Assembly: GCA_945860685.1 (NCBI GenBank)
Contig: CAMASJ010000005.1
Span: forward strand, 1-38,866
Direction of reading: 5' to 3'
DNA length: 38,866 bases
DNA from: Akkermansia muciniphila
GTDB taxonomy: Bacteria; Verrucomicrobiota; Verrucomicrobiia; Limisphaerales; UBA9464
The notes under the pieces are model-generated. The model searched no databases. It was not told where the DNA came from and worked only from the letters and a program-made list of their open reading frames with translations. Each line of letters starts with the position of its first letter. Position 1 is the stretch's first letter. The position numbers were made by a program, and so were the translations under genes. Shown one piece after another: positions 12,876 through 33,294 of this stretch.

Positions 12876-12915
12876 ATTACACAGGAGGCGTAAAAATTAC
12901 ACAGGAGGCGTAAAA
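12876..12915. repeat. Two perfect tandem copies of a 20-bp unit ATTACACAGGAGGCGTAAAA
   Basis: Read directly: ATTACACAGGAGGCGTAAAA ATTACACAGGAGGCGTAAAA followed by GGTAG. Confidence 0.95.
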
Positions 12916-13143
12916 GGTAGGCAGCGATTCAGTGCACGTCGTGGATTCGGCACATACCTTTCAATTCCCGGATGCATTTTATCTTTTTTGTTATCGCGAC
13001 CACAAAATGGAGCCGTCATGAGGATTTCCAATGAGAGTTACCGACTCCCGGCATCGATCTGGAACGGGTTTTTTTCGCATCTCGGCGTTCGAGATTGGCA
13101 ATTGCGCTTGTTCCGTGGGCCGGTGTCCCCCTTAATCCGCCGC

Positions 13144-13234
13144 GCCAGGGTCCATGGATCTCGGACTTGTGAACCCCGCCAGGGCCGGAAGGCAGCAACG
13201 GTGCTTGCTCCGTGACTGCCGTGGGTGCCCTGGC
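13144..13234 (+). ncRNA. ffs: Bacterial small signal recognition particle RNA (4.5S-type)
   Basis: Conserved core TGTGAACCCCGCCAGGGCCGGAAGGCAGCAACGG; 5' GCCAGGG pairs with 3' CCCTGGC; T-run (ATTTTT) follows immediately. Confidence 0.94.
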
Positions 13235-13348
13235 ATTTTTCCTTCCTCCCTTTCCCCCTACGGCCTCGTCCGGACTCCTGTCCGGCTTCCTCCACGGAGC
13301 GATTCCCGCGGTTGTTGACACCCGAGGGCATGGTATGGTCAGCGGACC

Positions 13349-29252: not shown

Positions 29253-32105
29253 TCATTTCCGCGCGCGGCGCTTGGCTTCCAGAAGCCGGTCCATCCCGCC
29301 ACCAGCGTTGCCGGGCTGTTCGGAACCGGGCTCCGACGGCTGCGTTGCCTTCGGCTCCATGACGGCGATTGGTGCCGTCGGGACGTTCGGTCGGATGTCG
29401 GCGGGCCTCTCGGCTTTGGAGGGCTCCGTCGCCGGGGCCTGGGGTGCGGCTGCGCGGACGGCATCGCGTTTGCCGAGCAGTGTCCGCAACGACTCCTCGG
29501 AGGCGCCGGCCTTGGATTCGTCTTCCGCGCCTTTGCCGAATCGCCGCAGCCGGCTCAGCCAACGTCCCCATTCGTCACGGTCGATCTCGATCCGCCGCAG
29601 GCCGATGTCGGCGACCAACAGCAGGACGATCCACTTCAGCAGGATTTCCCAGAGGTCCACCGGACGCCGGGTCCGCACGCGGTCCAGCAGGAAGGGGTTG
29701 TCCTTGGCCGGGTCGAGGATCCGTCCGCCGCCGAGCTGGGCGAGGGATTCGAGCACGGGCCGGTTGGCGCCGTGGTTCTCGAACTCGGGCGACGTGTTGA
29801 CAGTGGTTCCCAAGGATTGCATCGCCACGATCCGGCCGTCGCGCCGTTCCGCGAGCCCGATCAGGTACGCGCCGATTTCCCCGGCCGGGAAGGCCGCCTC
29901 GTAGTGCCCCGGTCCCTTCTGTTCCAGGCGCACCTCGGTGCGTCGGCCGGTCGGCGAGACGGCGGTGGCGGTGAGTTCGAGGAAGTTCCGGTAGGCGCCG
30001 TCGGAGTCGACCGCGTCGACCGTCAGCCGTCCCTCGCCCCGGTCCGTGGACGCCTCGGCCTGGAACTCCGCGGTGTCCACGCGGCGGAGCACCCAGCCTG
30101 TCGCCTGCAACCAGAAACGCTTGTAGCTGCCCCAGCCCAACCAGTCCTGCGCCCAACGCGAGCGGGCGTCGGAGGTGAAGGCCGCGGTCCGTCCCAACCC
30201 GTGCTGCCAGTGGGCCAGCAGCGGATCCCCCGACGGCGTGACCAGCGGAACCTCCGCCCGGGCCTTGGGCTCGGTCACCACATGGCCGCGCAGGACCGGG
30301 AAGGCGCCGTCCAGTCCCCGGAGCGGCTCGGTTGCGGAGACCACCCGCGGAACGAACGGCGTCTCGTCGATGGCCGACTTCAAGATCACCGCCGTCTCCT
30401 TGATGAAGATCTGCGGCAGCTCCGCGCTGGAGCGCACCTCGTGGAACCGTCCACGTCCCGCCTCCGCCATGCGGATCATGGTCCGCGGCGCCACGTGTGC
30501 CCCGATCATGACCGTGCTGACCGTGATCTTGGAGTCGACGATGGATTCCATCAGGGCGTCTGCGGGTGCGGCGGGGTCGCCGTCGCTGAAGACGAGGATG
30601 TGCTTGAGGTTCGCCGTGGATTTCCGGAGGCCGTCGCGGGCCAGGGTCATCAGGCCGTCGAAGGCGGGAAGGTCGCCCTGGTTCATCCCGGCGATGGCCT
30701 TCGACGCCGCGGCGCGGTCCCCCACCGGGGCGAGGTCGAGCAGCCAGCGGTCTGTTCCGTCCCACAGCACCACGCCCAGTTCGTCGCGCGGACCGAGCGA
30801 GTTCAGGGCGGCGAGTCCGATCTCCCGCGAAATCTGGTTGCCGTTGGCGAACTCCATGCCGTGCATCACCAGCACCAGCGCCCCGGCCGGAAGCACCTTC
30901 TTCGAACTCAGGTCCATCGACACCGGCAACGCCGCCTCGAGCGGCGTTCCGCGGTAGGCGCCGGCGGTGAACGAGTCATCGCCGCCGATGCACAGCAGCC
31001 CGACGCCGAAGTCGCGGACCGCGCTCTCGAGCAGACGCATCCGGTCCGGCCCGAGGACGCCCGCGCCCACGTTGCCGAGGATCACCGCGTCGTGGTCCTG
31101 GATCTCGGCGAGGGTCGACGGGAACGCGTTCGCCGGAAGGACCCGCACCTCGTATTCGGGCCGCAGGGCGTCGACGAGGTTGCGGTCCTGCTCCGGCGAG
31201 GACGACACCAGGAGGATGCGCGGCGTCCCGCGCACCGAGGTGAAGCCCGTCGCACGGTTGTTCTGCGGGACTGTGTCGCCCTCCGCCTCCACCGTGACCT
31301 CGTATCCGTGGAACCCGGTCTCCTCGAGCCGCTGGGGGAAGGTGAAGAGGTTCTTGCCCGCCTCGAGGGAGACCTCCTGTTCGCCTAGGAGGCGGTCGTT
31401 GCGCAACAGGCGGACCTTCGCCCGGCGAGCGGCATCGGACGTGATGTGGACGCGCGCCTCGAACGGGCTGCCGCGCTTGACGGTGGCGGGCAGCACGATC
31501 TTGCGCACGGACAGGTCGGAGCCGCGGCTGCCGCCGAGCGGGAGCACGTCGAGCGTGGCGCCCTGGCGACGCGCCTGGGCCAGGGCCTGGCGGGCGTCGC
31601 CGAGGTTCTCGTGTCCGTCGGAGAGGAGCACGAGCCGCTTCTGGCCGGACTCGGGGAAGGCGGCGGTGGCGAGGCGGATGGCGGAGGCGATGTCCGTCCG
31701 GTCACCCGGGACCACGGCCTGGATCTTCTCCGTCGCCCCGCCGGAGGTGGCCTCCGACTCCAACGCGGCCTCGCTGCCGAAGACGAGGAACCCGGCCTTG
31801 TCCACCCGCTTGGCCTCGGCCGCCCAGCGGTTCGCCTGGTCGCGGGCGGACTCCTGGACCGTCGCGGCGAGCGAGTCGGAACGGTCGAGGAGGAAGAACG
31901 TGTTCATCCCCTCGACCGGGTGCCGCCAGCGGAATCCGGCGAGGGCGAGGACGACGCCGCAGACGAGCAGGAGACGGAGAGCCGTCGAGAGGCGACGGCG
32001 CCAACCGGCGAGCAGCGCATCGGAGTGCACACCCAGCCACCAGGTGGCCCCGGCCGTCACCGGAAGCAACCAGAGCCAATGCGGATGGGTGAAGTCGAAC
32101 GGCAT
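29253..32105 (-). CDS. VWA-domain membrane protein with GATase-like segment
   Basis: MPFDFTHPHWLWLLPVTAGATWWLG, FFLLDRSDSLAATVQESAR, KRLVLLSDGHENLGDARQALAQARRQGATLDVLPLG, ILVFSDGDPAAPADALMESIVDSKITVSTVMIG, VGLLCIGGDDSFTAGAYRGTPLEAALPV. Confidence 0.9.
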   Translation of the reverse strand: MPFDFTHPHWLWLLPVTAGATWWLGVHSDALLAGWRRRLSTALRLLLVCGVVLALAGFRWRHPVEGMNTFFLLDRSDSLAATVQESARDQANRWAAEAKRVDKAGFLVFGSEAALESEATSGGATEKIQAVVPGDRTDIASAIRLATAAFPESGQKRLVLLSDGHENLGDARQALAQARRQGATLDVLPLGGSRGSDLSVRKIVLPATVKRGSPFEARVHITSDAARRAKVRLLRNDRLLGEQEVSLEAGKNLFTFPQRLEETGFHGYEVTVEAEGDTVPQNNRATGFTSVRGTPRILLVSSSPEQDRNLVDALRPEYEVRVLPANAFPSTLAEIQDHDAVILGNVGAGVLGPDRMRLLESAVRDFGVGLLCIGGDDSFTAGAYRGTPLEAALPVSMDLSSKKVLPAGALVLVMHGMEFANGNQISREIGLAALNSLGPRDELGVVLWDGTDRWLLDLAPVGDRAAASKAIAGMNQGDLPAFDGLMTLARDGLRKSTANLKHILVFSDGDPAAPADALMESIVDSKITVSTVMIGAHVAPRTMIRMAEAGRGRFHEVRSSAELPQIFIKETAVILKSAIDETPFVPRVVSATEPLRGLDGAFPVLRGHVVTEPKARAEVPLVTPSGDPLLAHWQHGLGRTAAFTSDARSRWAQDWLGWGSYKRFWLQATGWVLRRVDTAEFQAEASTDRGEGRLTVDAVDSDGAYRNFLELTATAVSPTGRRTEVRLEQKGPGHYEAAFPAGEIGAYLIGLAERRDGRIVAMQSLGTTVNTSPEFENHGANRPVLESLAQLGGGRILDPAKDNPFLLDRVRTRRPVDLWEILLKWIVLLLVADIGLRRIEIDRDEWGRWLSRLRRFGKGAEDESKAGASEESLRTLLGKRDAVRAAAPQAPATEPSKAERPADIRPNVPTAPIAVMEPKATQPSEPGSEQPGNAGGGMDRLLEAKRRARK

Positions 32106-32154: not shown

Positions 32155-32271
32155 GCGTTGAAGCGTTGAAGCGTTGAAGCGTTGAAGCGTTGAAGCGTTG
32201 AAGCGTTGAAGCGTTGAAGCGTTGAAGCGTTGAAGCGTTGAAGCGTTGAAGCGTTGAAGCGTTGAAGCGTT
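32155..32271. repeat. 8-bp tandem repeat (satellite), unit GCGTTGAA, ~14.6 copies over 117 bp
   Basis: Uninterrupted GCGTTGAAGCGTTGAA... read directly; produces artefactual RFNASTLQ repeats in minus-strand ORFs. Confidence 0.98.
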
Positions 32272-32376
32272 CCATCGGCGGCAAAGGAGTTTTGCCAAAA
32301 AGTCCACTGCCATCTCCGCCCCCCTTAAGCCCTTCAACCTTTCAACGCCCCCGTCTCCGCCACCCCCAGCACCACC

Positions 32377-32406
32377 TTGCTACACGTCGGGGTGGCCGGG
32401 TATCCT
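32377..32406 (+). promoter_or_regulatory. Possible sigma70-like promoter of dapA
   Basis: TTGCTA - 18 nt - TATCCT, 15 nt upstream of the dapA ATG. Confidence 0.35.
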
Positions 32407-32421: not shown

Positions 32422-33294
32422 ATGTTCACCGGCACCTACACCGCTTTGGTCACCCCCTTCCGCGACGGAGTCCTCGACGAGGCCGCCTTCGAGAAACTGG
32501 TCGCGAGCCAGCTCAAGGGTGGCGTGGACGGCATCGTCCCGGTGGGCACGACGGGCGAGTCGCCGACCCTGGACTACGACGAACACATCCGCGTGGTCGA
32601 GCTGGCGGTGAATTTCGCCAAGGGACGCGTCCCGGTCATCGCCGGCACCGGCGCCAACTCCACCAAGGAGGCGATCCTCCTCACCGAACGGGCCGAGGCC
32701 GTCGGCGCGGACGCCTCGCTCCAGGTCGCGCCGTACTACAACAAGCCCAGCCAGGAGGGACTCTACCGTCACTTCGCCGAGATCGCCCGGCACACCAAGC
32801 TCAAGATCCTGCTCTACAGCATCCCGGGCCGCTGCGGCATCGAGATCGGCGTCGACACCGCGAAGCGTCTCGCGGCGGATTTCCCGAACATCGTCGGCAT
32901 CAAGGAAGCCGGCGGTTCCTGCGACCGCGTCAGTCAGCTCCGCGCGGCGTGCGGACCCCGCTTCGTCATCCTCAGCGGCGACGATTCGCTGACGCTGCCC
33001 TTCATGTCCGTCGGCGCCGTCGGCGTCGTCAGCGTGGCCTCCAATGTGGCTCCGAAGCAGGTGTCCCGCATGGTCAACGCCTTCCTCGCCGGCGATCCCA
33101 AGACCGCCCTGAAGATGCACGCGAAGCTTTATCCGCTCTTCCGGAACCTCTTCGTCGAGACCAACCCGGTGCCCTGCAAAGCCGCCCTCGCCCTCGAGGG
33201 GATGATGACCGATGAGGTCCGCCTGCCGCTCGTCTCCGCCTCCCAGGCCACCCGCGAACTCATGGCCGCGACGATGATGCAAGTGGGGCTGTGA
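32422..33294 (+). CDS. dapA: 4-hydroxy-tetrahydrodipicolinate synthase
   Basis: FTGTYTALVTPFRDGVLDEAAF, GIVPVGTTGESPTLDYDEH, VIAGTGANSTKEAI, LQVAPYYNKPSQEGLYRHF, LLYSIPGRCGIEI, IVGIKEAGG, ILSGDDSLTLPFMSVGAVGVVSVASN. Confidence 0.97.
   Translation: MFTGTYTALVTPFRDGVLDEAAFEKLVASQLKGGVDGIVPVGTTGESPTLDYDEHIRVVELAVNFAKGRVPVIAGTGANSTKEAILLTERAEAVGADASLQVAPYYNKPSQEGLYRHFAEIARHTKLKILLYSIPGRCGIEIGVDTAKRLAADFPNIVGIKEAGGSCDRVSQLRAACGPRFVILSGDDSLTLPFMSVGAVGVVSVASNVAPKQVSRMVNAFLAGDPKTALKMHAKLYPLFRNLFVETNPVPCKAALALEGMMTDEVRLPLVSASQATRELMAATMMQVGL

Follow-up and report, generated by a model that had tools for sequence, protein, structure and literature searches.

An octamer array beside dapA in Akkermansia muciniphila is one arm of a dispersed bipartite repeat element

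In Akkermansia muciniphila, a gene for a VWA-domain membrane protein and a dapA-like gene are transcribed away from each other, and the space between them holds a long run of 8-bp repeats. This arrangement raises the question whether the repeat is a switch for the two genes or a sequence that is found there for reasons of its own. The window analyzed here is the whole stretch of 38,866 nucleotides (assembly GCA_945860685.1, contig CAMASJ010000005.1).

The array and its inverted partner

The array, (GCGTTGAA)14.6, has a period of 8 with 100% matches and zero indels (TRF). The window contains the octamer 16 times, compared to an expected 1.27, and a count of 16 was reached in 0 of 100 shuffles. 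The intergenic space is divergent and 316 bp long; in addition to its ATG at 32422, dapA has an alternative in-frame TTG start at 32377. A first-pass annotation, made from the sequence alone, had described a pure array of about 14.6 copies at 32155-32271, located outside both coding sequences, with gene starts at 32105 (VWA, minus strand) and 32422 (dapA, plus strand), and all of this agrees with TRF, the shuffles and the ORF coordinates. Two further parts were overlooked: a second, inverted array, TTCAACCTTTCAAC, located at 32333-32346, and the core that separates the two. Together, the first array (as left arm), this 47-bp core and the inverted right arm make up a bipartite element:

29253..32105, minus strand: gene for a VWA-domain membrane protein with a GATase1-like domain (ORF; Pfam PF13519, PF13768, PF07090)
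32155..32271, plus strand: left arm, (GCGTTGAA)14.6 (TRF 100%; the hexamer recurs at an 8-bp period elsewhere in the genome)
32272..32318, plus strand: 47-bp core, subtype A, CCATCGGCGGC...AAAAAGTCC...ATCTCCG, recurring between arms in genomes G000, G004, G006 and G013
32319..32346, minus strand: right arm, degenerate unit(s) followed at 32333-32346 by two inverted GTTGAANN units, that is, TTCAAC, the inverse of GTTGAA (minus-strand pattern match)
32422..33294, plus strand: dapA-like gene of the dihydrodipicolinate synthase family (Pfam PF00701, DHDPS, E 2.9e-95)

The same organization recurs at other loci. The core motifs GCGTTNNATNGGCGNC and AAAGTCCN6ATCTCCG are found again with arms flanking both sides, the left arm being composed of GCGTTGAA units and the right arm of CTTCAGCC and CTTTCAAC units, and the two sister species G004 and G013 each have the core with its arms at 5-6 loci. 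The copies lie on the following contigs:

G000 (the source genome): C5 (the window) and C53
G004: C3, C20, C53, C59 and C60, plus the copy at the dapA site, on C1, which the contig end truncates
G006: C800 (cut)
G013: C101, C151, C199, C270 and C374

A genome-wide scan for further arrays, which the first-pass annotation had suggested, detects GTTGAANN at an 8-bp period in 38 places of the source genome: the pattern GTTGAANNGTTGAA gives 88 matches (places were counted manually), compared to 1 match for the reversed-pattern control. Long (GCGTTGAA)n arrays are present in this genome at the window site and where contig C53 ends. The octamer arrays often have runs of a heptamer beside them, for example (ACAACGG)n / (CCGTTGT)n (L118, L130, L099, L129, L232). 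Within the genus, 4-unit arrays are present in 4 of 19 genomes (G000, G004, G006 and G013), and dapA is 98% identical to the window copy in G004 and G013 and 76-80% identical in most other congeners. The distant congeners were considered as candidate empty sites and rejected: the sequence upstream of their dapA is different, with no array in the stretches read, so that they show no insertion.

Because the source genome is a draft (4.22 Mb in 398 contigs, 88.8% complete) and many arrays of the family in three species are located at contig ends, the figure of 14.6 copies is to be taken as the value of the assembly. The frequency of contig ends at arrays could even suggest that the array itself is an assembly artefact. 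We consider this highly improbable, given that the array is spanned inside one contig in G000 and that two sister-species assemblies independently contain arrays at the dapA/VWA site, as they do at many others.

Differences between orthologous sites

At the dapA/VWA site, the flanks of G000 are 96-99% identical to those of G004 and G013. In G004, both contigs at the site stop inside the element; the VWA side has at least 10 GC units, and the dapA side has six TTCAAC and eight CTTCAGCC units. In G013, the VWA side has four GTTGAAGG units followed by an IS end, and the dapA side comprises at least 10 GC units together with the core and three TTCAAC units. Differences of this kind are found at most other sites: the number of exact units is unequal at 18 of 19 further orthologous sites, a manual tally of between-species variation at the sites where G000 is comparable to G004 or G013 across the whole segment, with the single equal case in L124. 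The unit numbers in G000, G004 and G013 are 11, 7 and 0 in L118, 2, 6 and 1 in L128, and 3, 13 and 4 in L120, respectively. The unit type also differs at orthologous sites in the two sister species, and the differences mostly come in 8-bp steps. The homogeneity of the units, combined with the 8-bp steps between orthologues, suggests that the arms probably grow and shrink by replication slippage. The slippage expansion and copy-number variability proposed in the first-pass annotation are thus supported at the between-species level.

The cores differ at orthologous sites as well. At loci v (G013:C151, G004:C3/C60) and x (G013:C101, G004:C20), the flanks are 96.6-97.2% identical, and the cores belong to different subtypes in G013 and G004 (67% identity). 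Between loci of the same genome, core identity is 95% in G004 (C20/C59 and C3/C53) and 93% in G013 (C101/C151). At locus x the core is, moreover, inverted relative to the shared flank, although both the swaps and the inversion are read from draft assemblies that are broken at arrays, where chimeric assembly is possible. Because core subtypes appear swapped at conserved loci, we infer that cores have probably been exchanged, and in one case inverted, via homologous recombination or gene conversion through similar arrays or cores.

Taking into account all these observations, we consider it probable that the array is an arm of a dispersed, mostly intergenic element with arms resized by slippage and cores exchanged among loci, which resides between dapA and the VWA gene as a passenger. 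Under this model, a short core flanked by inverted GTTGAANN arrays would be dispersed mostly between genes; the length of the arms would change through replication slippage; and the many similar arrays and cores would let recombination or gene conversion move cores between loci, once with inversion. At the dapA/VWA site, the element would have no dedicated regulatory role and would be neutral with respect to both genes. The origin and turnover of such elements become testable with three close genomes in which copy changes, swapped cores and the targeting of arrays by an IS are seen at orthologous sites.

Gene context, folding and transposition

The first-pass annotation had put forward a different view of the site, namely that of a possible promoter contingency locus, where copy changes alter the promoter/operator spacing and could thereby tune dapA, the VWA gene or both. 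In contingency loci, simple repeats lie in promoters, and the likeness is apparent: a slippage-prone repeat occupies a divergent intergenic space of 316 bp and varies in unit number between species. Nevertheless, the proposed tuning is unsupported for either gene, and we regard it as improbable. Unlike contingency loci, GTTGAA arrays are not confined to particular genes or promoters, given the 38 places of the family in the genome. In G000, G013 and a 792-kb sample of G004, the array sites that fall into the intergenic class comprise 25 in tandem, 10 in convergent and 3 in divergent contexts, compared to 168, 55 and 54, respectively, among 277 intergenic spaces of G004 without arrays, where the classes derive from a simple codon-usage gene caller and some of the sites are mutual orthologues and hence non-independent. 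The mix of contexts is similar to that of other intergenic spaces; with 3 of 38 divergent array sites against 54 of 277 in the background, there is no preference for divergent promoters, and the dapA/VWA site is the sole divergent one among the classed sites of G000. Furthermore, the conserved stretches (~50 bp beside the VWA gene and ~75 bp beside dapA) lie outside the array, and a copy change in a pure array would leave the gene-proximal units in position. Neither a sigma-70-like promoter nor a terminator-like site was found in the intergenic region, although the sigma-70 pattern may not represent the promoters that this lineage uses. A lone repeat between two genes, then, need not be their switch.

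We also considered whether the VWA gene could undergo translational phase variation, given that the minus strand of the array is stop-free, and rejected this because the upstream starts that read through the array are out of frame with this gene, in accord with the first-pass annotation, which expected no coding phase variation. A frame change of the VWA gene via another unit number, without a conserved start, is conceivable; the ATG in the window core is missing from the other (subtype B) core copies.

The plus strand of 32155-32350 folds better than shuffled sequences (z -6.7), as could be expected if the arms formed a hairpin in a structured RNA, serving as a terminator or stabilizer. To this possibility we attach hardly any weight. 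The minus strand of the same segment folds no better than shuffles (z -0.4), and arrays made up of the common unit types, GTTGAAAG and GTTGAAGG, do not fold, so that a hairpin is not a shared property of the GTTGAA family; moreover, no terminator-like site was found there. The Rfam search gave no known RNA family at the array, its sole match within the window being a small bacterial SRP RNA elsewhere, at 13143-13238 (RF00169, 65.2 bits); just upstream of this RNA, there is a perfect 20-bp tandem duplication at 12876-12915 (TRF).

The bipartite structure with inverted arms and the recurrence of the core at several loci would also fit a non-autonomous, REP/MITE-like transposable element with a transposase acting in trans. 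We consider this quite improbable, as neither an empty site nor a target duplication of the repeat element was found, and Y1/RAYT genes are scarce in the carriers of arrays (1 match in G000, 1 in G004, 2 in G006 and 0 in G013) compared to the 3-12 matches in nearly all non-carrier congeners, except for G010, which has 1. REPs, which are imperfect palindromes, are associated with RAYT transposases, whereas GTTGAA arrays are tandem octamers without a stable family-wide hairpin, in carriers with few RAYT genes; a RAYT-driven REP seems unlikely given this scarcity. An IS element does enter the arrays but has different ends of its own:

L213:1501-3019 (G013:C349), also L204-L212 and L214: IS481-like element; transposase at L213:1557-2945, minus strand

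In G013, all 10 detected ends of this element, which has terminal GTGACAGGGAGAGTTGGTC, are located within ~20 bp of GTTGAA/TTCAAC units, and the single copy in G004 is ~70 bp from such a unit. The transposase, 462 aa long, has a match to the IS481 model (E 2.1e-13) that falls short of the curated cut-off, and a search for relatives with solved structures found none. One pair of flanks, those in C95 and C349, points to TTTTAAC as a target duplication of the IS481-like element. The location of its ends at GTTGAA arrays parallels IS insertion into REP/BIME sequences, dispersed extragenic repeats that are selective insertion targets of particular IS elements (PMC1525189).

The GTTGAA motif and other dispersed repeats

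Cyanobacteria reportedly contain short tandemly repeated repetitive (STRR) sequences, described by Mazel and others, which are heptamers with clade-specific units. The GTTGAA arrays can be likened to such STRR/SSR-type families by description, not by sequence, STRRs being heptamers from another phylum: one unit is found in tandem at many places of the genome, the location is chiefly intergenic (a few sites overlap gene ends called by the simple gene caller), and the length at a given site differs among relatives (18 of 19 sites). The unit, however, is 8 bp long. In Xanthomonas and Nostoc, the heptamers GGGAATC / GGGGA(C/T)T form dispersed intergenic tandem repeats with fixed and free positions (GGGANTN), and these resemble the GTTGAA arrays in occurring as inverted pairs and in sharing gene borders among relatives with extensive length variation (PMC4692102). 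The heptamer is G-rich and quadruplex-prone, whereas the GTTGAA octamer is not rich in G runs, and the recurring core between inverted arms is a feature of the GTTGAA element unlike these heptamers (PMC4692102). TAACTGA direct repeats, found in Beggiatoaceae, cyanobacteria and Bacteroidetes with up to 43 copies in some, likewise represent one short intergenic motif that is patchy across distant lineages; this 7-bp unit is located, in BOGUAY, mostly directly upstream of start codons, as opposed to the 8-bp GTTGAA unit with its variable dinucleotide, for which no gene-start preference was seen (PMC4679880). Our literature search found no paper on such repeats in Verrucomicrobia. The best reading is that the GTTGAA family is an octameric relative of the known dispersed intergenic heptamer repeats, which slippage appears to have expanded and recombination to have shuffled, the octamer unit and the core between inverted arms marking it as a variant.

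The hexamer itself recurs beyond the genus. Motif-blind scans for period-8 arrays give GTTGAA in three families: it accounts for 12 of 13 arrays in the 792-kb sample of G004, for 6 of 8 in 400 kb sampled from G194, and, with N runs excluded, for 4 of 7 in a 291-kb sample of G254, where the other three are TCAAACGG-like. Across the phylum, 5-unit GTTGAANN arrays were detected in 13 of 388 genomes, compared to 3 for the reversed motif and 2 for a shuffled hexamer, and 6-unit arrays occur in many bacterial phyla according to a bacterial genome scan run with no control motif. Among 23 arrays from further genera of the Verrucomicrobiota, the hexamer positions are changed in 6 of 888 cells, positions 7-8 vary and the dinucleotides are mixed within 21 of the 23, a contrast that is partly due to ascertainment because these arrays were located via the hexamer. 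A near-fixed hexamer that recurs across families is not predicted by pure slippage from random seeds, so that selection or dispersal of the motif is needed.

These features would be accounted for if GTTGAA were a putative recognition site of a host protein, the arrays serving as multi-site docks in chromosome organization or regulation and the dinucleotide as a spacer. We consider such a binding function fairly unlikely: 15 of the 19 congeners lack 4-unit arrays, the unit count is unconserved, one orthologous site having no unit at all, and the hexamer count is due in part to ascertainment. A related proposal, that GTTGAA at an 8-bp period is a recognition motif kept across several Verrucomicrobiota families, with inverted arms that make the core an exchangeable and invertible cassette and a landing pad for the IS481-like element, also seems unlikely to us. 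The preferred reading, that of a dispersed passenger element, still extends what is known: 7-bp dispersed tandem repeats have been reported from a few phyla, and an octamer in which the hexamer is fixed and the dinucleotide free, present in several families, is an addition.

Other octamers occur in the phylum as well. One of the genomes with shuffled-hexamer arrays, G068 (C10, C12, C16), has a separate (GATTGAGG)n family of its own, so that octamer families may be clade-specific; GTTGAA recurs more often than either of the other two motifs tried. The G254 sample (L454-L473), in which several stretches read N, contains a second, TCAAACGR-like octamer family besides its GTTGAA arrays. In G162, a member of another family, TTCAAC arrays are located at predicted protein starts, for example MKNLQNTSCHKDKTMKAIQKIFSTFQLFNLSTPSVLLAAVLCAATSSA (L437:1638 onwards, L438:3742 and 4344 onwards), and a length change of 8 bp at these positions would alter the reading frame.
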